A DNA stretch of 64,000 nt from Saccharopolyspora thermophila. Its GTDB lineage: Bacteria > Actinomycetota > Actinomycetes > Mycobacteriales > Pseudonocardiaceae. The DNA lies in contig NZ_BMMT01000023.1 of NCBI RefSeq assembly GCF_014646075.1, positions 1-64,000 of the forward strand. Reading direction: 5' to 3'. Below are positions 557-60,462 of this stretch, piece after piece. The notes beneath the pieces were generated by a model, which saw nothing but the letters and a program-made list of their open reading frames with translations, was not told the origin of the DNA and did no database searches. The number at the start of each line of letters is the position of its first letter. Position 1 is the first letter of the stretch. The translations under genes were made by a program, and so were the position numbers.

Positions 557-756
557 GAGCAAGGGAACTTTCCTGCCACCCCGGCTCAACAGGACTGCAG
601 CAAGGGAACTTCCCTGTCACTTCCGCGCAGCACGGCCCGGGACGGTGCTCGTCTGCCCGGCAGGGAGCAAGGGAATTTTCCTGTCATCCGCGGGCAGCCC
701 GGAAAGCGGCAAGGGAACCTTTCTGCCACCTCGGCGGCAGGAAGGTTCCCTTGTGT
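557..756. repeat. cluster of five GGGAAC-TTTCC repeat units
   Basis: This sits in the 520-base gene-free stretch 256-775. Units in plus orientation begin at about 557 (GAGCAAGGGAACTTTCCTG), 597 and 665 (a variant with AATTTT). At 708-756 two units face each other and form a hairpin: the left arm starts CAAGGGAACCTT and the right arm ends AAGGTTCCCTTG, with a 5-base loop. Nothing else is recognisable in 256-556. The neighbours are the start of the symporter gene and the end of nucS, both on the minus strand. Confidence 0.85.
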
Positions 757-775
757 GCGGGTACGGCGTTCCGGC

Positions 776-1435
776 TCAGAACAGGCGGTACTCGTCCGGT
801 TCGATGCCGCGCAGCTTGTCGTAGTCCAGGATCACGCAGCGGATGCCGCGGTCCTCGGCGAGAGTGCGGGCCTGCGGCTTGATCTGCTGGGCCGCGAACA
901 CGCCGCGGACCGGCGCCAGCAGCGGGTCCCGGTTGAGCAGCTCCAGGTAGCGGGTCAGCTGCTCCACCCCGTCGATCTCACCGCGCCGCTTGATCTCCAC
1001 AGCCACGCTGGCCCCGGACTCGTCGCGGCACATCAGATCCACCGGCCCGATGGCGGTCGGGTACTCGCGACGCACCAGCGACCAGCCCTCGCCGAGGGTC
1101 GTGACGTGCTCGGCGAGCAGTTCCTGCAGGTGTGCCTCGACGCCGTCCTTGACCAGACCCGGTTCCACACCCAGCTCGTGTTTGGAGTCGTGCAGGATCT
1201 CCTCGATGGTGATGACCAGCTTCTCCCCGGCCTTGTTCTGGACGGTCCACACGCCGGGGTCCTCGATCAACCAGCACGGCGGGCTCATCCAGTTCAACGG
1301 CTTGTAGGCCCGGTCGTCGGAATGCACCGACACCGAACCGTCGGCCTTGACCAGCAGCAGACGCTGCGCCATGGGCAGGTGCGCAGTGAGCCGGCCGACG
1401 TAGTCCACCTGGCAGCGAGCAATGACGAGTCGCAC
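776..1435 (-). CDS. nucS: mismatch-specific endonuclease NucS
   Basis: A 219-residue protein, normal for the family. NucS/EndoMS provides mismatch correction in actinobacteria that lack MutS/MutL, cutting both strands around G-T, G-G and T-T mispairs. The N-terminal half carries the DNA-binding [14 protein letters not shown] stretch (about residues 40-53). The C-terminal nuclease half has a PD-(D/E)XK site at D133 (GPVDL), E147 and K149 (VEIK). The last residues, DEYRLF, fit the beta-clamp-binding tail of actinobacterial NucS. The GTG start gives the conserved VRLVIARC beginning. It diverges from the amino-acid permease across about 110 bases. Confidence 0.95.
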
Positions 1436-1544
1436 CCGGCACAGCGTACGGACGTCGATCCGGATGTCGAGCACCCCCGCCGCACTCCGCGGTTCGGGCA
1501 GGGGCCACCTCGGTGTCCCACTGGCCGAGATACGGTTACGCCTC

Positions 1545-2957
1545 GTGTCCTTCGCCCGATCCCTGCTCCGCGTCAAACCCGCCGAGCAACTCGCCGAAGA
1601 CGGATCGCACACCCCGCTGCGCCGAACCCTCGGGCTCGTGCCGCTGGTGGCGCTGTCGGTCGGCGCGACGCTCGGCACCGGAATCTTCGTGGTGCTGGCC
1701 GAGGCCGCACCCGCCGCCGGGCCCGCCGTGGTCGTCTCGTTCGTGCTGGCCGGGCTGGCCGCCCTGTGCTCGGCGCTGTCGTACGCCGAACTGGCGGGCA
1801 GCGTGCCGGTGTCCGGTTCCGCCTACTCGTATGCCTACGCCACGCTCGGCGAGCTGGTCGCCTGGATCTGCGGTTGGTGCCTGCTGCTGGAGTACGGGGT
1901 GTCGGTGGCCGCGGTCGCGGTCGGCTGGGGCGGCTATCTCAATGAGTTTCTGCGGGGCACGGTGGGCCTGACCATTCCCGATGCGTTCGCGGCACCGCCC
2001 GGCGACGGCGGTGTGGTGAACGTCCCGGCGGCGCTGGTCGTGCTGCTCGCGACGGCCGTGCTGCTGATGGGCGTGCGGGAGAGCGCGCGGGCGACCACCA
2101 TCACCACGCTGCTGAAGATCGCGGTGCTGGTGTTCTTCGTCGCCGTGGCGATCACCGCGTTCCGTTCGGCGAACATGACGCCGTTCGCCCCGGCCGGAAT
2201 CGCGGGCATCTCGGCGGGTGCCTCGGCGGTGTTCTTCTCGTTCATCGGGTTCGACGCGGCGTCCACGGCCGGTGAGGAGGCCCGCGACCCGGCCCGGGAC
2301 CTGCCGCGGGCGATCATCCTGTCGCTGGCGATCGTCACCGCCATCTACGTGCTGGTCGCGTTCGCGGCGGTCGGTGCGGTCGGTGTCGGTGTGCTCGGCG
2401 AGTCCGACGCCTCGCTGGCCACCGCCCTGCGGGTGGTGACCGGTCAGGGCTGGCCGTCGGTGGTGCTGGCGTTCGGCGCGGTGCTCGCCATCGCCTCGGT
2501 GGTGCTGATCGTGCTGTACGGGCAGACCCGCATCCTGGTGTCAATGTCCCGCGACGGGCTGCTGCCGGGAATGCTGTCGAAGGTGAATGGCCGCGCGGTG
2601 CCCGCCGGCAACACGGTGGTGGTCGGTGCCGTCGTGGCCGTGCTGGCGGCGGTGGTGCCGCTGAACCAGCTGGCGGAGGCCACCAGCATCGGCACCCTGG
2701 TGGCGTTCGGGCTGGTGAACATCGGTGTGCTGGTGTTGCGGCGGACGCGGCCGGAGCTGCCGCGCAGTTTCCGTACCCCGCTGATGCCGTGGGTTCCGCT
2801 GCTGGGGCTGGCGCTGTGCGTCTACCTGATCTTCGGGCTGGATGCGGTCACCTGGCTGACCTTCGCGCTCTGGACGGCGGTGGGGTTGGCGGTGTACTTC
2901 GGCTACGGCCGCCGCCGTTCGAAGCTCAATCGCACCGTGGTCGAAGCCGCCGACTGA
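1545..2957 (+). CDS. APC-family amino-acid permease (cationic amino acid transporter type)
   Basis: About 470 residues with some 12 hydrophobic segments. The first segment has the APC signature [17 protein letters not shown] near residue 40. Further family motifs are [18 protein letters not shown] (about residue 235) and [17 protein letters not shown] (about 330). Proteins of this group import amino acids, often arginine or lysine, by proton symport; the substrate here is not known. The GTG at 1545 is chosen because it gives the usual short cytoplasmic tail before the first membrane segment. Reading further upstream would overlap the nucS promoter interval. Confidence 0.88.
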
Positions 2958-2993
2958 CGGCAGGGGAGCGTCCGGTACCGCTGCGCGCCCGAA

Positions 2994-3016
2994 GTGACAG
3001 GAAAGTTCCCTTGCTC
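2994..3016 (-). repeat. single dispersed palindromic repeat unit
   Basis: Minus-orientation unit ending AAAGTTCCCTTGCTC, between the permease and the NUDIX gene (tandem interval 2958-3206). No partner unit is visible. Confidence 0.85.
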
Positions 3017-3206
3017 CGCGCACCGCATCCTGTGTGGACGGCCTGGTTCGGTGCTGTGAGGTGCGGTCGTGACGGGGTCGACGGCGGGAATCGTCCGGAG
3101 TGGACGTGGTGCTGCCCCGTGATCACGGCGCTCACCGGTTCGGGTCGCGCTGCGGGGCGAACGCCGTGCACCGGCGGAGCAAACCCGTTTCCGGCACCAT
3201 GGCCGC

Positions 3207-3743
3207 ATGAAGCAGATCAGCAGCCGCGCGGTGTACACGAATCCGTGGATGACCGTCCGGGAGGACGGCGTTCGCCGGGCCGACGGGTCCGAAGGCATCT
3301 ACGGCGTGGTGGACAAACCCGACTACGCGCTGGTGATCCCGCTCGATGGCGACCGGCTGCACCTCGTTGAACAGTTCCGCTACCCGCTCGGGTTGCGGCG
3401 CTGGGAGTTCCCGCAGGGCACCGCGCCGGACCGGCTCGACATGGAGGCGACCGAACTGGCCGCCCGGGAACTGCGCGAGGAAACCGGGTTACGGGCCGCG
3501 GAGCTGGTTGAACTCGGCACGCTCGACGTGGCGCCGGGCCTGTCCAGCCAGCGCGGCCGGGTGTTCCTGGCCACCGGCCTCACCCAGGGCGAGCACGACC
3601 GGGAACTCGAGGAGCAGGACATGCGCGCGGCGTGGTTCACCCGCGCCGAGTTCGAGAAGATGGTCGCCTCGGCCGAGATCACCGACGCCCAGTCGATCGC
3701 CGCCTACACCCTGCTTCTGCTGCACGAGCGCCAGCAGTCCTAG
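3207..3743 (+). CDS. NUDIX hydrolase, ADP-ribose pyrophosphatase-like
   Basis: 178 residues. The Nudix helix is visible as GTAPDRLDMEATELAARELREETG (described by its key residues: Gly, then REL-REE-TG), beginning near residue 72 and carrying a few extra residues compared with the canonical spacing. The preceding RRWEFPQG and the following DVAPGLSSQRGRVFLA resemble the ADP-ribose/ADP-sugar diphosphatase branch. It would cleave a nucleoside diphosphate linked to a sugar using Mg2+ bound by the Glu residues. The ATG start has no clear ribosome-binding site. It ends convergently with ehuA, with a hairpin between them. Confidence 0.9.
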   Translation: MKQISSRAVYTNPWMTVREDGVRRADGSEGIYGVVDKPDYALVIPLDGDRLHLVEQFRYPLGLRRWEFPQGTAPDRLDMEATELAARELREETGLRAAELVELGTLDVAPGLSSQRGRVFLATGLTQGEHDRELEEQDMRAAWFTRAEFEKMVASAEITDAQSIAAYTLLLLHERQQS

Positions 3744-3753
3744 GTCCCGCCGC

Positions 3754-3780
3754 CGGAGCAGGTCAGCCCGACCCGCTCCG
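3754..3780. terminator. bidirectional hairpin between convergent genes
   Basis: CGGAGC-a-GGTC pairs with GACC-c-GCTCCG around the loop AGCCC, giving 10 base pairs with one internal mismatch. It lies in the 53-base gap between the NUDIX gene and ehuA. There is no U-tract, so this is an inference from position and structure. Confidence 0.5.
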
Positions 3781-3796
3781 CCGCCGTCACCGGCGC

Positions 3797-4591
3797 TCAG
3801 GTCTCCTCCAGGATCGAGCGCAGGAACTTCCGGGTCCGCTCGTGCTCGGGAGCCTCGAACAGCTCGTCCGGCGGCTTGTCCTCGATGATCTTGCCGCGGT
3901 CGAACATCAGCACCCGGTCGGAGACGTCACGGGCGAACTTCATCGCGTGCGTGACGCACAGCATCGTGATGTCGGTGGTGCGGGCCAGGTCCCGCAGCAC
4001 GTCCAGGACCTCCGCCGCCAGCTCCGGATCCAGCGCTGAGGTGATCTCGTCAAGCAGCAGCACGTCGGGGCTCATGGCCAGCGCCCGGGCGATCGCCACC
4101 CGCTGCTGCTGGCCCCCGGACAGCTCCGACGGGTAGGCGTCGAGCTTGTCGCCGAGCCCCACCATCTCCAGCAGCTCCCGCGCCTGCCGCTGTGCGTCCT
4201 GCGCGGACCGCCCCAGCACGTGGATGGGCGCCTCGGTCACGTTGCGCAGCACCCGCATGTTCGGAAACAGGTTGAACTGCTGGAACACCATGCCGATCCG
4301 CCGCCGCATGCGGCGCAGGTGCTTCTCGTCGGCGGGCACCAGCTGGTCGCCGCGCCGCACGTGCGTGAGGCATTCGCCGCCGACGAAAATGGTGCCGCTG
4401 TTGACGCGCTCCAACGTCATCAGCAGCCGCAGGATCGTGGTCTTGCCCGAGCCGCTGGGCCCGATCAGCGTCACCCGCTGCCCCGGGCGCACCGCGAAGT
4501 CCAGTTCGTCGAGGACCACGTTGTCGCCGAACCGCTTGACCACCCGGTCGAACCGGATCATGTCGCTGGTTCCGGATTCAGATGCCGACAC
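3797..4591 (-). CDS. ehuA: ABC transporter ATPase, ectoine/polar amino acid type (EhuA)
   Basis: 264 residues. Walker A is GPSGSGKTT (about residue 43), the Q-loop is VFQQFNLFPNM, the signature is LSGGQQQRVAIARAL, Walker B is VLLLDE, and the switch His is in CVTHAMKFA. FPNM and LDEITSALDPEL are typical of the polar amino acid uptake (PAAT) family, and the set with the two permeases and binding protein matches EhuABCD, the ectoine/hydroxyectoine importer. The GTG start overlaps the end of ehuD by 14 bases, so translation is probably coupled. It is the last gene of the operon. Assignment to ectoine rather than another amino acid rests on overall resemblance. Confidence 0.85.
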   Translation of the reverse strand: MSASESGTSDMIRFDRVVKRFGDNVVLDELDFAVRPGQRVTLIGPSGSGKTTILRLLMTLERVNSGTIFVGGECLTHVRRGDQLVPADEKHLRRMRRRIGMVFQQFNLFPNMRVLRNVTEAPIHVLGRSAQDAQRQARELLEMVGLGDKLDAYPSELSGGQQQRVAIARALAMSPDVLLLDEITSALDPELAAEVLDVLRDLARTTDITMLCVTHAMKFARDVSDRVLMFDRGKIIEDKPPDELFEAPEHERTRKFLRSILEET

Positions 4592-5228
4592 GACGCTCCA
4601 ACCTCCGCACCAGCAGCGACGACGGGTAGCTCAGCAGCAGGAAGAACAGGCCCGCCAGCGTCAACGGCTCGACGTAGCGGTAGGCGTCCGACCCGGCTTC
4701 CTGCGCCGCCCCCACCAGGTCGAGCACCCCGATCGCCAGCAGCAGCGGCGTCTCCTTGAACATCGAGATGGTGTAGTTGCCCAGCGCGGGCAGCACCCGC
4801 GGGATGGCCTGCGGCAGCACCACGCCCGTCCACACCCGGTGGGTCGGCAGGCTCAACGCTGTGGCCGCCTCCCACTGGCCGCGCGGCACGCCGTCGATGC
4901 CGGCCCGGTACACCTCGGCGGTGTAGCAGGCGTAGTGCACGCCCAGACCGATCACACCCGTGGTCAGCGACGAGAACCGCACCCCGATGTCGGGCAGCAC
5001 GTTGTACAGGAAGTACAGCTGCACCAGCAGCGGCGTGCTGCGCACCACCTCGATGAACACCCACGTGGCGAGGCTGACCGCGCGGATCCGGGAGCGGCGC
5101 AGCAGCGCCAGCACGAGCCCCAGCGCGAACGCCACGGCCGACCCGAGCACGGTCGCCTCGAAGGTCACCAGGAGGCCACGCAGGATGTCCGGGATGATCC
5201 GGCCGGTGAACTCCCAGTCCCAGATCAT
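4578..5228 (-). CDS. ehuD: ectoine-type ABC transporter permease EhuD
   Basis: 216 residues with about five membrane segments. The EAA loop reads EAATALSLPTHRVWTGVVLPQAIP, which contacts the ATPase. The early EVVRSTPLLVQLYFLY motif is characteristic of PAAT permeases. It starts with ATG immediately after the TAG stop of ehuC, so the two membrane subunits are translationally coupled and probably form a heterodimer. Confidence 0.85.
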   Translation of the reverse strand: MIWDWEFTGRIIPDILRGLLVTFEATVLGSAVAFALGLVLALLRRSRIRAVSLATWVFIEVVRSTPLLVQLYFLYNVLPDIGVRFSSLTTGVIGLGVHYACYTAEVYRAGIDGVPRGQWEAATALSLPTHRVWTGVVLPQAIPRVLPALGNYTISMFKETPLLLAIGVLDLVGAAQEAGSDAYRYVEPLTLAGLFFLLLSYPSSLLVRRLERRVGI

Positions 5229-5936
5229 CTAGACCGCCCCACCCTGGCCGAGCACCCGCTCCGGTTCCACCGGGCGTCGCCCCACCGCCGCCGCGGCCCG
5301 CCGCTCCCACACCCGCATCACCGCCGTGATCAGCAGCGACAGCACCAGGTACAGCGCCAGCATCAGCAGATAGATCAACGCCGTCTGGCCACTGAAGTTC
5401 GGTTCCAGCACGTCCCGGCCCTGGTAGGTGATGTCGTGCACGAAGATCAGCGACAGCAGCGCGCTGCTCTTCAGCAACTGGATGAACAGGTTGTTGAACG
5501 GGGGGATCATCTCCACCACGGCCTGTGGCAGCACCACCCGCCACAGGCGTTGCACGCGGCTGAAGCTCAACGCCACCGCGCACTCGTACTGCTCCCGCGG
5601 CACTGACTGGACCGCCCCGCGCACGATCTCCCCGCCGTAGGCCCCGTGGTTCAGCCCGAGGACGAGGACCCCCGCCCACAGCGGCAGCAGCTCGAAACCC
5701 ACCAGCAGCGGCAGCGCGAAGAAAATCCAGAACAGCTGGACGACCTCGGACGTGCCGCGCCACACCTCCACGTAGATCCGCGCGACCACCCGCACCCACC
5801 GCCACGGCGCGAGCATGCCCAGCCCCGCGGCGAACGACAGCACCAGGCACAGCGCGATACCGCCCGCGGTGGCGAGCACGGTCGCGGGCACGCCCTGCAG
5901 CAGGACCACCAGGAAGTGCGAGACGTTCTCGAACAT
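5229..5936 (-). CDS. ehuC: ectoine-type ABC transporter permease EhuC
   Basis: 235 residues, PAAT-type integral membrane subunit with the WRGTSEVVQLFWIFFALP motif near residue 60 and the EAA-type loop ECAVALSFSRVQRLWRVVLPQA. The ATG is preceded by GGGAGGCGCC. It lies 21 bases downstream of ehuB and directly abuts ehuD. Confidence 0.85.
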   Translation of the reverse strand: MFENVSHFLVVLLQGVPATVLATAGGIALCLVLSFAAGLGMLAPWRWVRVVARIYVEVWRGTSEVVQLFWIFFALPLLVGFELLPLWAGVLVLGLNHGAYGGEIVRGAVQSVPREQYECAVALSFSRVQRLWRVVLPQAVVEMIPPFNNLFIQLLKSSALLSLIFVHDITYQGRDVLEPNFSGQTALIYLLMLALYLVLSLLITAVMRVWERRAAAAVGRRPVEPERVLGQGGAV

Positions 5937-5957
5937 GGCGCCTCCCGCTGCCCGCGG

Positions 5958-6854
5958 TCAGGCACCGGCGCACAGCCGGTCCGTGGTGACATCGGCCGGC
6001 GGCAGGTTGTCGCGGGTGAAGCCGAACGGCTCGGTGATGCGGAGCCATTCGCCGCTGCCGTGCAGCTTGGCCAGCTCCGTGTTGAAGGCGTCGCGCAACG
6101 TCGTGTCACCCGACCGGAACACGAACGCGCCCGCCTGGATCTCCGCTCTGCCGTCGATCATCGGGGTGAAGCCCTGGGTCACCTCGACCGGCGCGCCCGG
6201 GTTCTTGCGGACCAGGTCGTTGAGCGAGATGTTGGTCAGCGCCGCGCAGTAGACGCGCCGGTCGGTGACCGCCTGCAGCAGCGCGTTCTGCGTGTCGAAG
6301 ACCTGCACCTGGGACTCCGGCACCCCCAGGCGGAGCGCGTAGTTCTTCTCCACCGCGCCGCTGAGCACCGCCACCCGCAGGTTCTTGCGCGTGACGTCCT
6401 CGAACCGCGTGACACCCTCGGGATTGCCGCTGGGCACCAGGAACGCCGTGGGCGCGATGTAGTCGGGGATGGAGAAGGCGGCGTTGCGGCAGCGCTCGGG
6501 CGTGATGAACATGCCCGCTGCGACGACCGCGAATTTACCCGCGTTCAGCGCGGGGATGAGCTGGTTGAAGTCGACCTGGGTGGCCTGCACCTCGTTGACC
6601 CCCAGGTTCCGGAACACCGCGCGCGCCACCTCGGGTGCTTCGCCGGTGACCCGGCCGGTCTGGTCGGTGAAGCCGTAGGGCGCCTCACCGGCGATACCGG
6701 CCTGGATCGTTCCCGAACTGCGCGCCGCCTGCAGCGGGTCGCCTCCCGCGTCCCGGCCACCGGTGGGGGTGCAGCCGGTGAGCACCCCACCTCCGAGGAC
6801 CACGGCACCGGTGCCCCGCAGAAAGTCCCGTCGCGTCCACGCCGTGCTCGCCAT
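5958..6854 (-). CDS. ehuB: ectoine-type extracellular solute-binding lipoprotein EhuB
   Basis: 298 residues. The N-terminus TRRDFLRGTGAVVLGG is twin-arginine-like and ends in a lipobox (LTGC), predicting export and lipid anchoring outside the membrane. The mature part is a family 3 solute-binding protein (PYGFTDQTGRVTGEAPEVAR, then the ligand-contact region NLRVAVLSGAVEKNYA). The ATG at 6854 follows AAGGGGCG. It is the first gene of the ehuBCDA operon. Uptake of ectoines serves osmoprotection or catabolism; no ectoine synthesis or degradation genes are next to it. Confidence 0.85.
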   Translation of the reverse strand: MASTAWTRRDFLRGTGAVVLGGGVLTGCTPTGGRDAGGDPLQAARSSGTIQAGIAGEAPYGFTDQTGRVTGEAPEVARAVFRNLGVNEVQATQVDFNQLIPALNAGKFAVVAAGMFITPERCRNAAFSIPDYIAPTAFLVPSGNPEGVTRFEDVTRKNLRVAVLSGAVEKNYALRLGVPESQVQVFDTQNALLQAVTDRRVYCAALTNISLNDLVRKNPGAPVEVTQGFTPMIDGRAEIQAGAFVFRSGDTTLRDAFNTELAKLHGSGEWLRITEPFGFTRDNLPPADVTTDRLCAGA

Positions 6855-6966
6855 TGAGGATCGCCCCTTCACCACGCGGAGCAAAGTCCTCGTCCATGGT
6901 CGACCCCAACCATGTGACGCGCATGACCAGGTGCGGCGGCGTTCTCGGCCGGGATTCACCAGTTCC

Positions 6967-6983
6967 CACCCCGAATCGGGGTG
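6967..6983. promoter_or_regulatory. palindrome upstream of ehuB
   Basis: CACCCCGAATCGGGGTG has perfect 7-base arms around AAT and lies about 113 bases upstream of the ehuB start, in the murA-ehuB gap. It could be an operator for the importer or part of the murA terminator; TTTT follows on the plus strand only. Position alone cannot decide. Confidence 0.4.
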
Positions 6984-7055
6984 TTTTCCGCACGTCCAGG
7001 CGCAACACAAGGCGCCTCCGACCACGCAACTCGGCCGGACGGCACCCTGCACTCA

Positions 7056-7071
7056 TCACTCGATCGAGTGA
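7056..7071. promoter_or_regulatory. perfect 16-base palindrome just after murA
   Basis: TCACTCGATCGAGTGA is a perfect dyad 11 bases past the murA stop. A protein-binding site for control of the ehu operon and a short murA 3' hairpin are both possible. Confidence 0.4.
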
Positions 7072-7082
7072 CAGTAGTGGGT

Positions 7083-8345: not shown

Positions 8346-8416
8346 CGAGGTTACGGCCCGAGCCCCACCGCTCTCGGAGCGGGTGCGCACGCCCCTCGGA
8401 GCGGGTGCGCCGGCGC

Positions 8417-8464
8417 GAGCATGGGAACTTTCCTGTCACCTGCGACAGGAAGGTTCCCTTGCTC
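8417..8464. repeat. head-to-head repeat pair (hairpin) in a divergent interval
   Basis: The left unit begins GAGCATGGGAACTTTCCTG and the right unit ends AAGGTTCCCTTGCTC, with a short loop of about six bases. It lies between the starts of the divergent murA and adenosyltransferase genes, where a terminator would make little sense. Confidence 0.9.
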
Positions 8465-8492
8465 ACCACGGCGCCGCGCCTAGGCTGTCGGC

Positions 8493-9613: not shown

Positions 9614-9642
9614 GAGCGCAGACTAGTTCGCGAGCCGCATCC

Positions 9643-52233: not shown

Positions 52234-52296
52234 CAGCAGTGTCCTTTCTGCTCACGTTCCCCATCGAGGCTAGCTCCGAACTGCGTTGGCATAAGC

Positions 52297-52731: not shown

Positions 52732-52815
52732 ACCACAAGGATGCCCCACGGGTTTCCAGCCGTGCCTCAAGGCAGTCCGCATCCCTTCCACCGGGCTTCG
52801 CGCCGCAGGACGGGT

Positions 52816-52865
52816 CGAGTGAGGGAACCTTCCTGCCGCTGGTGACAGGAAGGTTCCCCTGCTCG
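52816..52865. repeat. head-to-head repeat pair between tandem genes
   Basis: CGAGTGAGGGAACCTTCCTG faces CAGGAAGGTTCCCCTGCTCG, both CC variants, nearly perfect stem. Between arfB and the serine hydrolase gene, both minus strand. Confidence 0.9.
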
Positions 52866-52881
52866 CTGACCTCGCGGGTGG

Positions 52882-54243
52882 TTACTGGGCGGCGCGCCAC
52901 CCGGTGACGCCGCCCGGTACGGGGGCTTCTGTGTCGTAGGGGGTGCGGGTGAAGATGAAGGTGTTCAGGTTGAGGTGGGTGGGCACGCCGTCGGCGTTCC
53001 GGCCGATCCGTAGCACCTCTCCCGCGTAGTAGCCGTCCAGCCCTGTCCAGGTGTCGTCAGCGTTGGCCCGGAACCGTGACGCCCGGCCGCGGCCCTGCCA
53101 CGGGACCAGGTCGAGCAGTCCGCTGGGGAGCACCCGCAGCACGTACGGGGTCGGTCCCCAGTACCACTGGCCCGTCAGTTCGAGGAGCCGAATGTCGACG
53201 TCGGGTCGCGGTTCCCACGGTTCGGGGATGCGCGGCTCGTGCTCCGCGAGCAGGTCGAGCAGGTCGGTGGCGAACGCCCCGGTCACCCCGGCGGTGGTGT
53301 TGGCCATGAAGATCACGGAAGTGGACTCGGCGGGGTCGGACCACAGGGTCGCCAGGAAACCGGGCATGGATCCGGTGTGCCCGGCCAGGCGCCGCCCGCG
53401 GTGCCGCGCGAGCTGAAATCCGAGCCCGTATCCGGCGCGCCATTCGCCGCCGTCGTCGACCGAGGCCGGTGCGCGCATCTCGGCGACGGTGTCGGGATGC
53501 AGCACGTCGCCGGTGTCGCCGTTGATGAAGCGCGCCCACCTGGCCAGGTTGTCGAAGGTCGACCACAGCTGGCCTGCCGGGGCCATCGCCCCGGCGTCTT
53601 CTGCTGGCTCGGGCAGCACCACATCCGCCCACGGGTGCACTGCGAAGCCTCTGGCGTGCGGTGCCACGGGACCGAGGGTGGTGCGGGTCATGCCCAATGG
53701 GGTCAGGATCTCGCGCTGGAGGACCTCGTGCCACGGGGCGCCGCGCAGCCGGGACACCAGTTCACCGAGCACTCCGAAGCCGACGTTGGAGTAGTGGAAG
53801 CCGTGGCGAGGGGTGGGACGCACTGCCTGGGCATCGATGCTGGCCAGCAGCTCTTCAGCGCTGCCGCCAGGCGTGCGCTCCCACCACTGACCTGCGGGTT
53901 CGGCAGTCAGACCACTCGAATGCGAAAGGATCTCACCGATGTTCCGGTTGCCGATCGAGGTGCCTGTGACGTGTTCGTCGAGCTTGTCGGCGAGGTCAAG
54001 CCTGCCTTCGTCGCGCAGGCGCATCACGAGCACGGCAACGAAAGTTTTCGTGATCGAACCGATCCGGTACTGGGTGTCCGTTGTGGAGGGTTGGCCTTCG
54101 ACCTTGCCCCGGCTGTCCACCCAGATCGTCTCCCCGTCGCGGACCAGCCCGGCGATCAGCGAGGGGATGCGGTTTTGGCTCTGCTCCACCGCCAGGCGCC
54201 GCAGCAGGGCGCGCTCGGTGGAGGGCAGCAGACTCGTCAACAT
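52882..54243 (-). CDS. serine hydrolase, beta-lactamase class C / DD-peptidase family
   Basis: 453 residues, no export signal. SxxK motif GSITKTFVAVLVMRL (Ser about residue 63), YxN motif FHYSNVGFGVLGELV (about residue 150), and HTG in LAGHTGSMPGFL replacing KTG. A C-terminal DUF-like domain of about 110 residues follows (QWYWGPTPYVLRV). Function is probably an esterase or peptidase rather than antibiotic resistance. GGAGGA immediately precedes the ATG. Confidence 0.88.
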   Translation of the reverse strand: MLTSLLPSTERALLRRLAVEQSQNRIPSLIAGLVRDGETIWVDSRGKVEGQPSTTDTQYRIGSITKTFVAVLVMRLRDEGRLDLADKLDEHVTGTSIGNRNIGEILSHSSGLTAEPAGQWWERTPGGSAEELLASIDAQAVRPTPRHGFHYSNVGFGVLGELVSRLRGAPWHEVLQREILTPLGMTRTTLGPVAPHARGFAVHPWADVVLPEPAEDAGAMAPAGQLWSTFDNLARWARFINGDTGDVLHPDTVAEMRAPASVDDGGEWRAGYGLGFQLARHRGRRLAGHTGSMPGFLATLWSDPAESTSVIFMANTTAGVTGAFATDLLDLLAEHEPRIPEPWEPRPDVDIRLLELTGQWYWGPTPYVLRVLPSGLLDLVPWQGRGRASRFRANADDTWTGLDGYYAGEVLRIGRNADGVPTHLNLNTFIFTRTPYDTEAPVPGGVTGWRAAQ

Positions 54244-54336
54244 TCCTCCATGCTTCCACCTTAAGAGCTTCGGTTTCAGGATCGTCGTGTTCGCCGGCTG
54301 CCCGCCCGCACAGATTGACAGGAATATGCCCGTGCT

Positions 54337-55314
54337 TCAGCGGCGGCTGCGCCGGTTGACGCCCCGGGAGATCCCGACCTTTGGTTTCTCCAAGCGCACG
54401 GGGAGTTTGCCGAACATGACAAGCACCAGAATGACCAGTGCGAGCGCGATCCAGCCCGTCCAGCCGAGAAGCCCGACCGAGGCGTTGTCGACGGGATGCC
54501 CGGCCTGGCTGAACAACGTCGCCAAACCTGCTGACGCGTTGAGGAAACCGTGTGCGATCACCGGGGGCCAGACGCTGCCGGTGGCGAGCCTGAGCCAGCC
54601 GAGCACGACCCCGACGAGCGTGCAGAAACACACCATCATGATGAAAGCCACCACGATCGGGACGGTCGGATAGTTGTAGCCGAGGATCAACACTGGCGCG
54701 TGCCAGAGGCCCCAGAGCACACCGGTGGTGAGGAAGGCGCCGGGTTGCCCGAGCGGCAGCAACGCCGGCGTCAGGTAACCACGCCAGCCCAGTTCCTCGC
54801 CGAGCGCAGGCACGATGCGCAACCACCCCAGCAGGAAGACCTGGACGATCTGGAAGAGCGCCAATGCCCCCGGGGACTTCAGCTGCTCTTCACCGACAAC
54901 AGCCCCGCCGACTTGCTCCACCAGCCCGGAGAAACCCGTCCAGTCGGCCTTGTAGACGCCGAGCATGTAGCCGATGACGAGAGCCAGGAGCATCACCAAC
55001 GGTGGGCCCAGCCAGGCGACCAGGATGTATCGCCACCACGTCTTGATGCCTCCGGGGTTGGTGATGCCGAGGCTGCGGAGAAGCTTGGGTTTCGGGCTGA
55101 TCCACTTGTTGACCACGAGCGCGGCCACTGCGGGCATGAACATCATGACGGTGAGCACGAGCGGAGCCCAAGCCCACGTCAGCCCTTCGCCGGTCAGCCA
55201 GAGCGGTAACGTCACCAGCCATGCCGGGGCGTAGGCCAACGCGACGAAGCTGACCGCGCCGCGGACATCAACCCGGTCCTGCTCGGTACTCACGTCGGCA
55301 TTTTGCCAAGCCAT
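54337..55314 (-). CDS. CPBP-family intramembrane metalloprotease
   Basis: 325 residues, about eight membrane segments. ABI motif 1 PALGEELGWRGYLTPALL (Glu-Glu and Arg, about residue 178), motif 2 VLWGLWHAPVLI (His), and a third HGFLNASAG. The extended hydrophobic segments before it are typical of the CAAX-protease-and-bacteriocin-processing family. Targets unknown. Confidence 0.88.
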   Translation of the reverse strand: MAWQNADVSTEQDRVDVRGAVSFVALAYAPAWLVTLPLWLTGEGLTWAWAPLVLTVMMFMPAVAALVVNKWISPKPKLLRSLGITNPGGIKTWWRYILVAWLGPPLVMLLALVIGYMLGVYKADWTGFSGLVEQVGGAVVGEEQLKSPGALALFQIVQVFLLGWLRIVPALGEELGWRGYLTPALLPLGQPGAFLTTGVLWGLWHAPVLILGYNYPTVPIVVAFIMMVCFCTLVGVVLGWLRLATGSVWPPVIAHGFLNASAGLATLFSQAGHPVDNASVGLLGWTGWIALALVILVLVMFGKLPVRLEKPKVGISRGVNRRSRR

Positions 55315-55342
55315 CCTGAATGCTCCCTGAGCGCCAAGGACT

Positions 55343-55394
55343 TGGAGCAGGGGAACTTTGCTGTCACTGGCGGCAGGAAAGTTCCCTTGCTCCA
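55343..55394. repeat. head-to-head repeat pair between tandem genes
   Basis: TGGAGCAGGGGAACTTTGC faces AGGAAAGTTCCCTTGCTCCA. Both arms have the CT variant and the outer arms TGGAGCA/TGCTCCA pair. It sits upstream of the CPBP start and downstream of the penicillin-binding protein terminator. Confidence 0.92.
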
Positions 55395-55415
55395 GCCGGT
55401 GATGTGGTGGAAATG

Positions 55416-55455
55416 CGAGGAACCTCCCTGCCTGGGGTGGCGGGGAGGTTCCTCG
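55416..55455 (-). terminator. terminator of the penicillin-binding protein gene
   Basis: CGAGGAACCTCCC pairs perfectly with GGGAGGTTCCTCG (13 pairs, 14-base loop), 11 bases past the stop codon. Not a member of the dispersed family despite some similarity (GAACC/GGTTC). Confidence 0.65.
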
Positions 55456-55466
55456 GGTGTTGTCGG

Positions 55467-57566
55467 TTACGGAGCCGGGGTGCCTGGTAGCGGCTGCACC
55501 GGTAGACCCTCGTGGATCTTTTTCATGGCCGCGAACCAGGTCCTCGCCGGAACCTTGCCGCCGTAGATGTTGCCGCCGTGCTTGCCGCAGAGGAACGGGG
55601 GCGTGTCACCGCCGCCGTCGCAGATACCTTGGGGGCTGCTGCCGTCGGCGTAGGTCAGGACGGCCCCGGCCATCTGCGGGGTGGCGGCTATGAACGCCGC
55701 CGACTTGTGCTCCTGCGTGGTCCCGGTCTTGCCGATGATCGGCCGATTCCAGCCGGCTGCCTGCGCTGCGGCGTGGGACGTGCCGCCGGCGTCGGCGTCC
55801 TTGCTCATGCCCTGGGCGAGGGCGGCGGCGACCTGCGGCGACACGGCCTGCTCGCAGGGGGCTTCCTTGAGCGGCACCAGGTTGCCGTGCCGGTCCCTGA
55901 CCTCTTCCAACGGGGTGGGCGGGCAGTAGACACCGTCGCTCATGATCGTCGCGGCGACATTGGACAGCTCCAGCACGCTGGTCGGGGTGTAGCCGAGGGT
56001 GAAGGCACCCCGGTTGCCCTTCTTGATGGCTTCGGCCTGGGAAGGCCCGTTGGAGCCGTCCGATTTGAGGCGTTGGCCGCGGGCGTTGACGCCGTTCATG
56101 CCGACCCGCAGGCCGAGGCGCGAAGCCATGTCGACGACGTTGTTCAGGCCGACCCGCTCCTGGAGCATCACGAATGCCGTGTTCGGCGACGTGGCCAACG
56201 CCATCTGCAGCGTTCGCGGCCCCGGGGCGACGCCGTCGGCGTTCCCGACGGTGTAGGGGGCGCTTCCGTTCCGGTATACGCGGGAGGTGTACGTAGGCGG
56301 CACGTCGATCGTGTCGTAGGGGCTCATGCCCTGTTCGATGGCGGCCGCCGCGGTGAACACCTTGTAGACCGACCCGGCACCGAAGGGCTGCACCCGGCTG
56401 ACGATGTCATACGCCGTCTGCCCCTTGCTCGCGTCGTTGCCGTAGTCGCGGTTGGCGACCAGCGCGCGCACCTTGTGCTTGTCCTTGCCGGGCTCAACCA
56501 CGGCCATCGCGTTGGCGATGCCTTCGGTCTGCGTGGGCACCTGGGCTTCGGCAGCGTCCTTGGCCGCGTCGGTGGCTTTGCGGTCGAGCGTGGTGCGGAT
56601 GGTGTAGCCGCCGGTCTTCAGCTGGTCGCTGTCGATACCGAGCCGCTCGAGGTAGTCGACGAGGTAGGTGCAGAAGAACCCGTCGGTGGTGCCGTCGCCG
56701 ACGCCGACGCAGCCGTTCGGCGGGCGGCCCAGCGGGGACAGTACGCCGAGCGGCTCCTTCTTGGCGATCTCGGCGTCTTCCTTGGTGATGCGGATGCTGT
56801 TGTTCGGATCCGTCATCAGGTCGATCACGAGGTTGCGCCGCTGCAGCGCATCGTCGGGGTTGCTGTTGGGGTTCAGCGAGCCGGGCTGGTTGACGATCGC
56901 GGCCAGCAGGGCGGCCTGGGCGATGGTCAGCTTGTCCGGGGTGGTGCCGAAGTAGGTCTGGGCGGCGGCACCGACGCCGAAGGTCTGGTTGCCGAAGGGC
57001 ACCACGTTGAGGTATCCGGTGAGGATCTCCTCCTTGGTCATGGTGCGCTCGAGCTCGACGGCGATCTTGGCCTCGCGAAGCTTGCGGGCGATGGTCGTCT
57101 CCTTGGCCTTCTCGGCCTCCATCGCGTTGTTCGCCGCCACGTGCACCAGGTAGTTCTTCACGTACTGCTGGGTGATGGTGGAGGCGCCCTGCGCGGCTTC
57201 ACCGCTGCTGAGGTTGGTGGCCAGGGCGCGCATGGTGCCGTGCCAGTCGACGCCGCCGTGGTCCCAGAACCGCTTGTCCTCGACCGCGGTGATCGCGGCC
57301 TTCATCGTGTCGGAAATCTGCTCGGGTGGTGTCTCGACCCGGTAGTCCTTGAAGAAGTACGCGATCGGGGCGCCGTCCTTGTCAGTGACCGTCGACACCT
57401 GCGGCATGTCCCGCCGCGCCAACGAACTCGACATTTTGGACATGGCGTCGGTCGTCTGGTTGATCACCGCCCCGGCACCGGTGGCCATCGGCAGCAGCAA
57501 CGCCGCCACCAGCACACCAGCCAGGACGCACAGCCCGAACATCTTCAACAGCACGCCGCTGCGCAC
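55467..57566 (-). CDS. class A penicillin-binding protein (glycosyltransferase/transpeptidase)
   Basis: 699 residues. One N-terminal membrane helix, then the glycosyltransferase domain (AITAVEDKRFWDHGGVDWHG, GASTITQQYVKNYL, RKLREAKIAVELERTMTKEEILTGYLN) that polymerises lipid II. The transpeptidase domain has SVYK in PFGAGSVYKVFTAA, SPN in LATSPNTAFV, and KTGTT in IIGKTGTTQEH. Single-pass type, without PASTA repeats. It diverges from the RHIM-like gene. Confidence 0.93.
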   Translation of the reverse strand: MRSGVLLKMFGLCVLAGVLVAALLLPMATGAGAVINQTTDAMSKMSSSLARRDMPQVSTVTDKDGAPIAYFFKDYRVETPPEQISDTMKAAITAVEDKRFWDHGGVDWHGTMRALATNLSSGEAAQGASTITQQYVKNYLVHVAANNAMEAEKAKETTIARKLREAKIAVELERTMTKEEILTGYLNVVPFGNQTFGVGAAAQTYFGTTPDKLTIAQAALLAAIVNQPGSLNPNSNPDDALQRRNLVIDLMTDPNNSIRITKEDAEIAKKEPLGVLSPLGRPPNGCVGVGDGTTDGFFCTYLVDYLERLGIDSDQLKTGGYTIRTTLDRKATDAAKDAAEAQVPTQTEGIANAMAVVEPGKDKHKVRALVANRDYGNDASKGQTAYDIVSRVQPFGAGSVYKVFTAAAAIEQGMSPYDTIDVPPTYTSRVYRNGSAPYTVGNADGVAPGPRTLQMALATSPNTAFVMLQERVGLNNVVDMASRLGLRVGMNGVNARGQRLKSDGSNGPSQAEAIKKGNRGAFTLGYTPTSVLELSNVAATIMSDGVYCPPTPLEEVRDRHGNLVPLKEAPCEQAVSPQVAAALAQGMSKDADAGGTSHAAAQAAGWNRPIIGKTGTTQEHKSAAFIAATPQMAGAVLTYADGSSPQGICDGGGDTPPFLCGKHGGNIYGGKVPARTWFAAMKKIHEGLPVQPLPGTPAP

Positions 57567-57574
57567 GCCAGCCC

Positions 57575-57799
57575 CTATTCACCAAGTGTCCACACGACTT
57601 GACCACCGACGCGGGTCGCAGTGCCCACCCAGGACCCGTTCGCCGACCGCACCGACCGGCTGGAGAGCATCCCGCCGACGCCCGCGGCGCGGGCTTCAGT
57701 CGGCACCTGCTTCTCTTTGCTGTCAGCCAATTCGTTGATATCACATCCGGCTGTCCACGCTGCGTTGAACCGAACGGCCGAGCCCGCGTCGAGCGGCAC
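57575..57799 (-). CDS. possible small protein upstream of the penicillin-binding protein
   Basis: 74 codons from GTG 57799, stop eight bases before the penicillin-binding protein start. The product (end GSWVGTATRVGGQVVWTLGE) has balanced composition and could be a co-transcribed small gene, but the start lacks a ribosome-binding site and I recognise no family. Confidence 0.3.
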   Translation of the reverse strand: MPLDAGSAVRFNAAWTAGCDINELADSKEKQVPTEARAAGVGGMLSSRSVRSANGSWVGTATRVGGQVVWTLGE

Positions 57800-57813
57800 A
57801 CGGAACCGGATTG

Positions 57814-57833
57814 GATCACTACACTTGGTGATC
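57814..57833. promoter_or_regulatory. inverted repeat upstream of the RHIM-like gene
   Basis: GATCAC and GTGATC flank eight bases (TACACTTG), 27 bases before the gene start and in the divergent interval. The half-site GTGATC also forms the dyad at 35330-35345. Possible operator. Confidence 0.35.
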
Positions 57834-57859
57834 GCCGTAGCCGATCACGCGGAGGAGAA

Positions 57860-58240
57860 ATGACCGACCCGTTCCTGGATTCCCTGGCCACCGCGCTCGC
57901 CGGGCAGGTCGCCACCGCACTGGGTGCCGCGGGCACCCGGGCGCTCGAAAAGGTCCGCGAACTGCTGCGGCGCAGGTCGCAGAGCGACCCTGAGACCAAG
58001 GCCGCACTCGAGGCGGCCGAGCAGGATTCGGCCGGACCGGAGCAGATCACCGCACTGGCCGAGCGTCTGGACCAGGTGTGTGCGGAGGACGCCCAGTTCG
58101 CCGAGGAGCTGCGCGCCGAGGGCGCAGAGGTGTACAAGGAGATCTCGGCGAGCGAGAACAGCGTGGTGAACGTCAACCACGGCAAGGTCCGGAACCTGAT
58201 TCAGGCCCGCGAGATCCACGGCGGGATCACGTTCAACTAG
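57860..58240 (+). CDS. small protein with RHIM/BASS-like C-terminal motif
   Basis: 126 residues, GGAGGAGAA before the ATG. An amphipathic helical part (DPFLDSLATALAGQVATALGAAGTRALEKVRELLRRR, then Ala/Glu-rich helices) is followed by a short C-terminal segment NVNHGKVRNLIQAREIHGG. This tail follows the G-x-V-x-x-(V/L)-(V/I)-Q-A-x-x-(I/V)-x-G-G pattern seen in many actinobacterial proteins and resembles the RHIM core of animal necroptosis proteins and the bacterial amyloid-signalling motifs (BASS) of NLR-like systems. No NLR or effector gene is adjacent. Function is inferred from the motif only. Confidence 0.7.
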   Translation: MTDPFLDSLATALAGQVATALGAAGTRALEKVRELLRRRSQSDPETKAALEAAEQDSAGPEQITALAERLDQVCAEDAQFAEELRAEGAEVYKEISASENSVVNVNHGKVRNLIQAREIHGGITFN

Positions 58241-58661
58241 CTCGCCGGTCGGCCTCGTTGAGTTCGGCGAGGTACCGGTTGTACGCAGCAAGTTCCGGAT
58301 CTTCGGAGGCATCGACCGGGGGCGCCGGGGGCGGCAGCAGTGGTCGCTTCCGGCGCGCCGTCGCCTCGGGAGGCTCGCCCCCGCTGCTGTCGGCCTCGCG
58401 CGCAGCGGGTTGCTCGACGGCCTCCGGTTCGGTGTCGTCGACGTCCCGCCGCAGCTCCATGCGCATCAGCTTGATCCAGAGGTAGATCGTGAACGCCCCG
58501 AACAGGGGCCACTGCAGGGCGTACCCGAGGTTCTGGAAGCTTCCCCCGGCTTCGTGGGCGCGGTCCCACTGCCACACGGCCAGGAAGCCGGTGGCGATCG
58601 TGGCCACGATGAACAGCGCGTGCAGAAGCAGCCAGCGCGGCGTCAAGAGGCTGCGGGACAC
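58233..58661 (-). CDS. two-helix membrane protein, unknown
   Basis: 142 residues. Two membrane helices (WLLLHALFIVATIATGFLAVWQWDRA and ALQWPLFGAFTIYLWIKLMRMELR), then a charged, Pro-rich cytoplasmic tail ending AAYNRYLAELNEADRR. This pattern is common in actinobacteria without a known role. Its 3' end overlaps that of the RHIM-like gene by eight bases. Confidence 0.75.
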   Translation of the reverse strand: MSRSLLTPRWLLLHALFIVATIATGFLAVWQWDRAHEAGGSFQNLGYALQWPLFGAFTIYLWIKLMRMELRRDVDDTEPEAVEQPAAREADSSGGEPPEATARRKRPLLPPPAPPVDASEDPELAAYNRYLAELNEADRRAS

Positions 58662-58767
58662 ACTCGAATTCTAGGCGCCACAGCTCCGGACCATCTCGCG
58701 GCTCGGTCACAGACCGTCCCGGCCACCCTCGGTAACAGCTGAGGCAGACGAAAACCGAAGAAACAAA

Positions 58768-58783
58768 TGTGATCAATGTCACT
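58768..58783. promoter_or_regulatory. Crp-like binding site
   Basis: TGTGATCAATGTCACT matches TGTGA-N6-TCACA at all but the last base, in an AT-rich stretch 107 bases upstream of the two-helix membrane protein gene. Candidate site for a cAMP receptor protein homologue. Confidence 0.5.
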
Positions 58784-58805
58784 TCCTGTGGAAGGGTTGC
58801 TGCTG

Positions 58806-58954
58806 ACGCAGGGGAACCTTCCTGTCACCCGCTGATCATCGACGCCTCCGCCCCAGTTGGTTACCGAGCCGCGCACGCGTGACAGGAAAGTTCCCGTGCT
58901 CGCGTGCGGCGCGCACCCGGCGTCGGGGTGGTGGCAGAAAGATTCCCTTGCTTC
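58806..58954. repeat. three dispersed repeat units in one interval
   Basis: A plus unit at about 58806-58829 (CGCAGGGGAACCTTCCTG), and minus units at 58880-58903 (ending AAAGTTCCCGTGCTC) and 58933-58954 (GGCAGAAAGATTCCCTTG). The last covers the first two bases of the MFS stop codon (minus-strand TGA, 58953-58955). Confidence 0.85.
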
Positions 58955-60104
58955 AGCCGTGACGCCGGTGTGCCCTGGTGGCAAGTGGGGTGCAGAGGGC
59001 GACGAGGAGCGCTGCGGCGATGAAGGCAGTCGGGTAGCCGGTGAGGGTGACCAGGAGGCCGAAGCCGATCGAGCCCAGGCCGTTGCCCGCGTCGTAGGCG
59101 ACGTTCCACGCCGTGCTCGCGACACCGGACTCGGCCCGGTCGAACATCGCCACCAAGGTGATGTTCTGAGCCGCACCGAACCCCGCGCCGAACGCGACCG
59201 CACCGACCACCGCCAACGGCCCCGCGCCCCACGAGGCAGCAGCCACCAGGAACGTGCCCAGAGCGGTCGCCACGACAGCGGGCAGCAGTACCCGCGTGTG
59301 ACCGAGCCGGTCTCCGAGCTGCCCGGCGAGCCAACGACCGAGCATCGTCGTGGCAGCGAACACCATCAGGGCTGCCGGGGCGACCGAGCCGGCGACTGCC
59401 AGCGGCAAGAACGCCACGAGCCCACCGGCCGCAACTGCAACCGCGGTCATGACCGTCCACGGCGCCAGCAGCGTGCCCGGCACGGTCGGGGCACCGCCTC
59501 GGCCAACCGAGCGGGCATGCACCCGCGCGATACCCACCACCGCCGCAGCCGCCACGACAGGCAGTCCAGCGGCGATCCAGAACAGCGGCGCGAACCCGAT
59601 GTGCTGGGCAAGCCACACTCCGGCGGGCAGGAACACGATGTTGGGCAGGCCGACAGCCAGCCCGTACAGGCCGGCTGCCCGGCCGCGCTGAGTAACCGGC
59701 ACGAGCTCGGCGACCAGCGCACTGCCGGTCACGGTCAGCAACCCGAAGCCAACCCCGCGCAGGCCCGACACGCACAGCAGCAGCCACAGGTCGCTGGACA
59801 GCGCGAACAGCGGCGTGGGTGCGCCGATCAGAACAGTGCCCATACCAAGCGCGAGGCGGTGGTCGACGCGCTTCAGCAACCATGGCATGGCCAGCTGGGT
59901 GGCCACCGTGACGAGCATGAAGACGGCGTTCGTCGCGCCCGCCGCGATCTCACCGGCCCCACCCACCACTGCCCAGAGCGGCACCACCGACAACAGCAGC
60001 GCATATCCCGCGAACCCACCGAGAGTGGTCACCAAGAGCAGCTGAAAAGACCGGCGCCGCAACGGGGTCTGTTCGCGGGAACGATGGGCTGCCGGAACTC
60101 TCAC
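58953..60104 (-). CDS. MFS transporter
   Basis: 383 residues, 12 membrane segments. Features include SVVPLWAVVGGAGEIAAG in the first helices, the LRGVGFGLLTVTGSALVAELVP region with a GxxxG pattern after helix 4, and GRWLAGQLGDRLGHTRVLLP, the second-half motif A. Likely drug or metabolite efflux, substrate unknown. GTG start. The stop codon lies within a repeat unit. Confidence 0.85.
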   Translation of the reverse strand: MRVPAAHRSREQTPLRRRSFQLLLVTTLGGFAGYALLLSVVPLWAVVGGAGEIAAGATNAVFMLVTVATQLAMPWLLKRVDHRLALGMGTVLIGAPTPLFALSSDLWLLLCVSGLRGVGFGLLTVTGSALVAELVPVTQRGRAAGLYGLAVGLPNIVFLPAGVWLAQHIGFAPLFWIAAGLPVVAAAAVVGIARVHARSVGRGGAPTVPGTLLAPWTVMTAVAVAAGGLVAFLPLAVAGSVAPAALMVFAATTMLGRWLAGQLGDRLGHTRVLLPAVVATALGTFLVAAASWGAGPLAVVGAVAFGAGFGAAQNITLVAMFDRAESGVASTAWNVAYDAGNGLGSIGFGLLVTLTGYPTAFIAAALLVALCTPLATRAHRRHG

Positions 60105-60462
60105 GAACTCTTGATAGGCCGTGTCCCCGGTCCGTGTCCATCCCGGTTGAGCAGCTCAACGTGGCAGCCGACAACGCCTGCAGTCTGCGGCGAACCAGAA
60201 CCCCGGCTTCGGCAACGTCACGCAGGACATCAACCTGCCGGGGACCCAGGCGGGGCCTTCCCGTTCCCTTGCTCTCTGTCGTGGGCATGGGCGGGTGGCA
60301 GGAAAGTTCCCTTGCTTCGGTAGGCGGCCCGGTGGGGTTGGGGTGGTGGGTTCGCTTGTTCTGGTGGTGGGTGGCTGCAGGCGGGTCGCGTGGCACGACG
60401 GGACCGCCCGGGCAGCCGTGCTGGCCGGGGTGGTGTGGGGTGGGTGAGCCGTTGGGTGGTGG
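60105..60462. other. gene-free stretch with repeat units and GC-rich filler
   Basis: Contains the repeat units listed separately at 60263-60318 and otherwise only low-complexity G/T-rich sequence (60320-60460). No gene supported. Confidence 0.5.
60263..60318 (-). repeat. one full and one partial dispersed repeat unit
   Basis: GTTCCCTTGCTC at 60263-60274 is a half unit; a full minus unit, GGCAGGAAAGTTCCCTTG, lies at 60296-60318. Confidence 0.8.

Follow-up and report, generated by a model that had tools for sequence, protein, structure and literature searches.

A palindromic repeat family confined to one chromosome block in Saccharopolyspora thermophila and its relatives: candidate sites of a domain-marking protein

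What does a short palindrome do that recurs, singly, in direct arrays and as facing pairs, between the genes of an actinobacterial chromosome? The question is raised by a stretch of 64,000 nucleotides from Saccharopolyspora thermophila, referred to here as the window. A sequence-only reading of it had described a dispersed family of over 30 units at about 22 sites, doubted that a plain terminator role would explain their placement, and named REP/MITE-type elements or a chromosome-organising binding site as the closest ideas. Among the literature matches listed, in which coverage of subscription papers is thin, nothing concerned this repeat, and those returned for 11-13-base forms of the sequence were, by title, papers on viruses and mammals.

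The repeat unit and its setting

The palindromic repeat family in the window is confirmed as real. With up to two mismatches, AAGGGAACYTTCCTG is matched 31 times against 0.04 expected, and none of 100 shuffles reached this number. The longer unit GCAAGGGAACYTTCCTGYCAC, with up to four mismatches, gives 32 units spanning 559 to 60315, which bears out the earlier count of units; grouping of units less than 600 bases apart reduces the proposed 22 sites to 17 loci (Table 1). All three forms, singles, direct arrays and facing pairs, are found in the window as had been stated, and the GGAA-NN-TTCC dyad claimed to lie inside each unit is present. A search with Rfam at gathering score returned only a tRNA and an L31 leader in the window, and none of these matches lies at a unit.

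Table 1. Repeat loci of the window, with positions numbered from its first nucleotide
Position	Strand	Units	Context
559..754	mixed strands	array of 5 (++++-)	downstream of nucS 3' end
2994..3014	-	single, exact	tandem interval, amino-acid permease / NUDIX
8419..8462	both	facing pair (+-)	divergent interval, murA / cobalamin adenosyltransferase
11096..11116	+	single, 3 mismatches	5 bases past lysR-type gene; facing pair in G003 syntenic interval
22842..22971	+	direct array, 3 exact	convergent interval
26032..26075	both	facing pair	convergent interval adjoining rho
36924..37001	+	2 direct	convergent interval; G003 syntenic interval occupied
38013..38033	-	single, 3 mismatches	close to tRNA-Arg; G003 syntenic interval occupied
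39850..39870	+	single, exact	
40555..40598	both	degenerate facing pair (4 + 3 mismatches)	convergent interval; pair also at neighbouring G003 orthologue
45854..45874	+	single	within called ORF 43543-46467; orthologous G003 ORF contains facing pair
48252..48295	both	facing pair	convergent interval; G003 and G033 occupied, G032 keeps decayed pair
49697..49717	-	single, 3 mismatches	
52819..52862	both	facing pair	tandem interval; pair also at neighbouring G003 orthologue
55347..55390	both	facing pair	G003 units at same place
58808..58951	mixed strands	three (+--)	G003 syntenic interval occupied
60295..60315	-	single, exact	tandem interval
1..64000	.	entire window	within repeat-marked block, which runs on over the first 39 kb of contig C2 and the first 47 kb of C22

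The unit is ~21-25 bp long and, in the consensus of six genomes, has a nearly invariant core, GGGAAC-Y-TT, with 5' letters that are lineage-specific. Opposite-strand neighbours less than 70 bp apart are strictly phased, 119 of 136 being exactly 23 bp apart as facing units. Placement is overwhelmingly intergenic (146 of 150 units), beside core genes that are unrelated to one another, among them atp, rho, murA and nucS. Using interval types that rest on the gene calls of a simple purpose-made caller, 17 window units are convergent, 10 tandem and 4 divergent, with one in a called ORF, so that the mixed placement described earlier stands. The doubt about a plain terminator role is likewise upheld, since, where the units of a tandem interval all point one way, 16 have the gene sense and 27 the opposite sense.

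A single syntenic block with lasting positions

Genome-wide motif searches overturn the description of the family as dispersed. In the 5.36-Mb genome of S. thermophila all 62 copies (at most one mismatch) lie on three contigs, which are joined by synteny into one block of ~159 kb. The fetched syntenic region holds 386 of the 392 copies (at most two mismatches) carried by six genomes from three genera; the blocks measure 122-165 kb, and one stray locus lies apart in G003. These blocks hold 63-100 units in about 30 loci (26, 34, 30, 32, 34 and 32 per fetched region) and end near the same genes, although the position of the left end can differ by several genes and, in g54 genomes, that end is rearranged. 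On the 6.56-Mb chromosome of G003 all 70 units (at most three mismatches) lie in 203 kb, 67 of them in 157 kb, and in G006 all 55 (at most one mismatch) lie within 231 kb. The two blocks are 0.93-1.08 Mb and 1.10-1.33 Mb from dnaA, respectively, and the former distance places the G003 block on a chromosome arm and not at the terminus. The sequence-only reading had regarded a scarcity of copies elsewhere in the genome as grounds for abandoning the family; such scarcity is literally what is found, but it is by just this confinement that the family is unusual.

Positions within the block are long-lasting. Between G137 and G154, 29 loci are occupied in both genomes, 2 in one and 42 in neither, and between G137 and the distant G033 the corresponding numbers are 8, 4 and 17 (p = 3e-4), with eight of the nine G137 loci in this comparison occupied in G033 too; agreement of position gave p above 0.05 in five of 15 genome pairs. 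The proportion of alike columns between G137 and G119 is 0.80 in units versus 0.46 in near flanks. For G137-G154, the closest pair, this proportion is 0.80 in units and scarcely lower, 0.78, in the remainder of the intervals that hold them. Letters flanking the units differ by lineage, and the number of units in an array varies between close species.

Presence of the family is nearly all-or-none. Each of the 17 sampled members of the genus carries 13-121 copies; among relatives, G065, G098 and G032 have none and G071 has one. Nine genomes of genus g24 contain a scattered variant of the unit in low counts (1-11). Three relatives keep most genes of the region yet are without the array, one of them with a lone decayed pair surviving in an interval that is shared, and the array is therefore dispensable.

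Possible roles of the block

The explanation that we favour, tentatively, is that the units may be sites through which a putative sequence-specific protein would mark out a chromosome domain, in a manner like that of MatP/matS but on an arm. Here we infer the protein, its binding and the folding role of the block. The unit would be the site of a predicted DNA-binding protein, which would occupy the loci of the stretch, mainly between genes and often at two inverted sites 2 bp apart. Once bound, it could bridge loci or recruit a partner, e.g. a condensin, and the stretch would thereby gain a folding, mobility or position of its own, as MatP gives at matS in the Escherichia coli terminus. In common with a macrodomain, the repeat forms a site family in one region that is conserved among related species. 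The earlier idea of a binding site would be in keeping with the conservation of one block and the invariance of the core.

Known systems offer partial parallels. The likeness to MatP/matS lies in short palindromic sites confined to one chromosome region; matS, as described in PMC3116907, is a 13-bp site with 23 repeats in Ter and the consensus GTGAC(A/G)N(T/C)GTCAC. The repeat differs from it in sequence, length and number of units, in its pairs and arrays, and in lying, by dnaA distance, away from the replication terminus, with a binder that is putative. SlmA-binding sites are also palindromic and, according to PMC3116907, are believed to act more through their chromosomal place than through the adjoining genes; they number about 50 and are scattered across the chromosome except in Ter, unlike the one block seen here. 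ParB/parS likewise has palindromic sites that cluster in a single part of the chromosome, but the repeat is unlike the parS 16-mer. Of the 12 genomes with a parS match, 11 have it on the dnaA contig and G007 on another contig, and no match lies in the repeat blocks located.

The main rival, which we consider possible but less probable, is a REP/REPIN- or MITE-like family without any domain role, which spread locally long ago and was then kept, gene-converted and lost by chance. As in REP, BIME and REPIN elements, short intergenic palindromes occur as singles, facing pairs and arrays, and units are scarcer in divergent than in convergent intervals (1.13 versus 4.53 per kb). Variable array sizes in close species and absence of the array from three relatives with most of the region's genes also speak for such a family, and gene conversion or palindrome correction is consistent with both the lineage dialects and the resemblance between the two arms of a facing pair. 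At variable positions, those arms match in 18.80 of 21 columns against 18.38 in shuffles (none of 2000 reached the observed value), an agreement not expected from simple independent binding; direct neighbours in the same test gave 98 and 260 of 2000 shuffles. Genome by genome, agreement exceeds shuffles in four of six (43, 9, 13 and 2 of 1000) and was not found in the S. thermophila genome (763 of 1000) or G154 (371 of 1000); a pure hairpin constraint was rejected. A second palindromic family in G137, dense at 690-918 kb and otherwise scattered, indicates that copies may cluster regionally with no domain role involved. In G003, no other family of like abundance was found in 0.8-1.0, 5.34-5.477 or 5.643-5.82 Mb or in 60 kb of control sequence. 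Against a REP-like origin stand the block ends and many loci that are stable across genera, and we know of no spreading mechanism that keeps to the same ends in three genera. The genome-wide spread of REP elements is also missing, as is the Y1 transposase (PF01797), with no match in the five carriers tested (G000, G003, G137, G119 and G033); the check for a RAYT-type transposase that had been proposed thus came out negative, and G098, which is without units, has two PF01797 matches. Neither GTAG nor CGTC, the tags that PMC3733652 gives for one end of such elements, occurs in the six-genome consensus. With these absences, the single-block distribution and the lasting positions, a RAYT-type REP is not supported. 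No exact 19-mer match was found in viral contigs, and a phage origin was rejected. Two foreign-gene islands in the block, of about 21 and 11 kb, are free of units, a weak argument because gaps of 18 kb or more without units occur elsewhere too.

An RNA-level role, in which the facing pair forms a long transcript hairpin for bidirectional termination or 3'-end protection, appears unlikely. It would account for the folding of facing pairs (-38.0 and -47.2 kcal/mol in two examples) and of consensus single units of g54 and G033 (-10.0 and -10.8 kcal/mol), for the agreement of facing arms, for the density in convergent intervals, and for 102 of the 211 units nearest a stop codon lying within 20 bases of it. 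However, 3' ends are needed genome-wide and the family occupies one block, units also stand in 24 divergent intervals, those of one orientation in tandem intervals follow no gene sense, and the bare consensus unit of the S. thermophila type folds weakly (-3.3). A transcription regulon whose genes chance to sit together would explain intergenic sites, some between divergent genes, but is very improbable, given that divergent, promoter-bearing intervals are the poorest in units and the adjoining genes are unrelated. Against the domain-marking explanation itself count the uneven spacing of loci (even spacing was looked for in the blocks and not found), the dispensability of the array, the agreement of facing arms, the nearly equal likeness of units and intervals in G137-G154, the five genome pairs with p above 0.05, the variable left end, the clustering of the second G137 family, the scattered g24 variant and the result of the gene search described below.

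Relatives without the array

The carrier pattern was defined as presence in G003, G137, G154, G119 and G033 and a missing or weak match in at least two of G032, G098 and G025. A comparison of the regions of eight genomes, run for 160 genes from the S. thermophila block and its surroundings, found no gene that followed it. A candidate factor at the left end (C2:37900-39060, 386 aa), present in carriers' regions and missing from those of G098 and G041, was rejected as it occurs in 116 of 249 genomes, namely all 22 carriers and 94 others. By eye, its product resembles a membrane/TPR protein. A search for repeats that replace the block family in these relatives gave three candidates and established none: AGTGAACGGWCCGTTCRYC of G098 is widespread in G065 and G137, and exact copies of the array repeat with CCCGCAAGGCCAGGG of G032 are spread over the chromosome, its counts at two mismatches (63 and 61) being near control (52 and 42). 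The third, TCGCGCGAAACCG of G025, has about 10 copies in the stretch examined.

In E. coli, according to PMC5441646, matS/MatP marks Ter and maoS/MaoP marks Ori, whereas the Left and Right domains depend on position and not on DNA sequence. The block may, with similar caution, represent an arm counterpart of the Ter system, in which an actinobacterial clade would carry a sequence-encoded domain of about 30 palindromic loci with a putative binder, its ends kept across genera and the whole set absent from some close relatives. A gene common to carriers and absent from the array-less relatives would offer a short route to the putative protein. To our knowledge, few site families that mark one chromosome region are known, and an arm block marked by sequence, with the marking missing from close relatives in which most of the block's genes persist, would provide a natural comparison for the effect of the marking.

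Confinement and distribution of the repeat family

The palindromic repeat family with core AAGGGAACYTTCCTG, proposed in the sequence-only reading, is borne out in the 64-kb window, where the core has 31 matches (<=2 mismatches) against 0.04 expected, an abundance far above chance; the longer unit GCAAGGGAACYTTCCTGYCAC (<=4 mismatches) gives 32 units in 17 loci, a locus being a group of units less than 600 bases apart. Every one of the 62 copies found at <=1 mismatch in the source genome (G000; 5.36 Mb in 59 contigs) falls on contig C2, C22 or C23, the window itself being C23:1-64000; the reversed-pattern control has one match. Synteny with the single-contig chromosome of a second carrier, G003, orders these contigs as C2 (reversed), C23 and C22, giving a block of ~159 kb. 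Across the six carriers compared, 386 of 392 genome-wide copies (<=2 mismatches) lie within the region fetched around the block. The dnaA gene of G003 (6.56 Mb) lies at 0.7 kb, adjoined by parS, and the block is thus 0.93-1.08 Mb from dnaA, a distance that leaves it well before the point opposite dnaA on the circle.

Among 249 genomes of the taxonomic family, 34 have a match (<=2 mismatches): all 17 of the source genus (13-121 copies each), the single genome of genus g22 (47 copies), four of six in genus g54 (68-88 copies), nine of genus g24 (1-11 scattered copies of a variant, GCAAGGGACCTTTGCTGTCAC) and three others with one copy each. The repeat was found in none of eight genomes from other families of the order, and viral contigs held no exact 19-mer match. 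Among genomes of 84,980 species, 103 stretches contain the exact 21-mer, and all 80 listed of these 103 are from Saccharopolyspora. Mobilisation by a RAYT-type transposase is not supported.

Copies (local/genome-wide; <=2 mismatches unless stated), unit spans and coordinates of the block and neighbouring features
Genome	Feature	Position	Copies	Span or remark
G000	all units in region		58/58	159 kb
G003	all units in region		59/59	203 kb (157 without stray locus)
G137	all units in region		87/88	152 kb
G154	all units in region		72/72	165 kb
G119	all units in region		68/68	122 kb
G033	all units in region		42/47	132 kb
G003	copies, <=3 mismatches	5.478-5.681 Mb	70/70	67 at 5.478-5.635 Mb; other 3 are one stray locus at 5.681 Mb
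G006	copies, <=1 mismatch	7.594-7.825 Mb	55/55	dnaA at 6.497 Mb
G003	unit-free island	5553-5574 kb		~21 kb
G000	unit-free island	C22:17-28 kb		~11 kb
G000	long ORF with unit	window 43543-46467		sensor-kinase-like by eye
G000	L31-Actinobacteria ribosomal protein leader	window 25386-25431		directly upstream of short gene 25144-25365
G032	decayed facing pair	7.0979 Mb		same interval occupied in G000, G003, G033
G198	GCAAGGGACCTTTGCTGTCAC variant (example)	C1:904-1161 kb	8/11	within 260 kb
G137	AGTGAACGGWCCGTTCRYC, dense part	C1:690-918 kb		elsewhere scattered, among matches listed
G032	array with CCCGCAAGGCCAGGG	C1:6962936; 7014079-7014248; 1216811-1216992		~56-bp period
G003	10-mers around GAGCCTGTCTTYGAA	0.8-1.0 and 5.72-5.82 Mb		dispersed, low-copy
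G025	palindromic motif TCGCGCGAAACCG	C3:66-215 kb	~10	intergenic, in 160 kb

Unit anatomy and the persistence of loci

The consensus differs by lineage (GAGCAAGGGAACYTTCCTGYCAC in the source genus, GCGAGGAAGGGAACCTTCCTGTCAC in g54, GTGACAGTAAGGGAACTTTCCTGTCAC in G033), as do the 5' letters at shared loci. Spacing is strongly phased: 119 of 136 opposite-strand neighbours closer than 70 bp form facing units at exactly 23 bp, exactly one facing pair is present in 94 of 189 occupied intervals, and direct arrays keep a 29-bp period in the three g54 genomes compared (67 cases), with different spacings elsewhere. In four regions, 146 of 150 units are intergenic, and density falls from convergent (4.53 units per kb) through tandem (3.77) to divergent intervals (1.13), types that are approximate because the genes come from a simple purpose-written caller. 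The long window ORF may have its true end earlier, or its unit may be translated; the G003 orthologue holds a facing pair.

Both ends of the block are largely shared. On the right it stops just past a gene of 58 aa, itself preceded by one of 1228 aa (by eye, 2-oxoglutarate dehydrogenase), in all carriers compared except G003, where the last dense locus comes three genes before that point. The left end falls in the same interval in G000 and G003, within a few genes of it in G033, G137 and G154, and a few genes further inward in G119, with gene order there rearranged in g54 genomes. Locus positions agree (p <0.05) in 10 of 15 genome pairs; G137 and G154 share 29 occupied loci, with 2 occupied in one and 42 in neither, and for G137 and G033 the counts are 8, 4 and 17 (p = 3e-4). 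In three pairs, unit columns are identical at 0.80, 0.80 and 0.74, as against 0.62, 0.46 and 0.43 in near flanks and 0.78, 0.61 and 0.58 in the rest of the same interval, values that score gaps as differences and overstate constraint to some degree, since repeats may draw the alignment. Two foreign-gene islands in the block lack units, an absence that carries little weight, as other gaps between units are equally long; the island genes have no orthologues in most compared genomes, and the G003 island adjoins a gene whose orthologue in the window neighbours tRNA-Arg.

Relatives without the family

The family was not found in the corresponding regions of G098, G032 and G025, despite retention of most genes, as judged by reciprocal best hits against the region of G003 (154, 136 and 94, respectively). 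One decayed facing pair is left in G032; no residual units were found in the regions of G098 and G025. A tree of 73 concatenated proteins places G098 beside the g54 carriers and G032 beside the source genus, whilst G025 and G033 shift with the outgroup. Because loci and ends are common to the carriers, the simplest account is shared ancestry followed by two or three losses.

Other repeats were seen in these genomes. The directional palindrome AGTGAACGGWCCGTTCRYC has 441 strand matches in G137 (<=2 mismatches, with some places counted on both strands); one copy falls within the 220 kb fetched, a little beyond the block. CCCGCAAGGCCAGGG has at least 20 exact copies in G032, those listed lying at 0.47-1.54 and 5.97-7.36 Mb.

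Putative role of the units

The arms of facing pairs agree at 18.80 of 21 columns, compared with 18.38 in shuffles, and 0 of 2000 shuffles reach the observed value; for direct neighbours, 98 and 260 of 2000 shuffles reach the observed agreement. The effect is strongest at column 2 and absent at column 18, and is compatible with a hairpin and with a two-fold complex, as well as with imperfect palindromes being corrected. The main rival explanation, an old, locally confined REP-like family without function, is considered somewhat unlikely. The invariant core, the fixed phasing and the lasting loci and ends together suggest protein sites, and the units are quite possibly targets of a domain-marking protein with sequence-specific binding.

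In the literature searched, none of four forms of the unit sequence turned up in a paper on bacteria, judged by title, and the family is not classed as a member of any known system compared. The lateral macrodomains of Escherichia coli are reported to be set by position, not sequence (PMC5441646). The nearest system in kind is MatP/matS, in which, according to PMC3116907, a 13-bp motif occurring 23 times in Ter was found in silico before its protein, MatP. The repeat family differs from matS in sequence, density and chromosomal place, but as a set of putative domain-marking sites it would work likewise.
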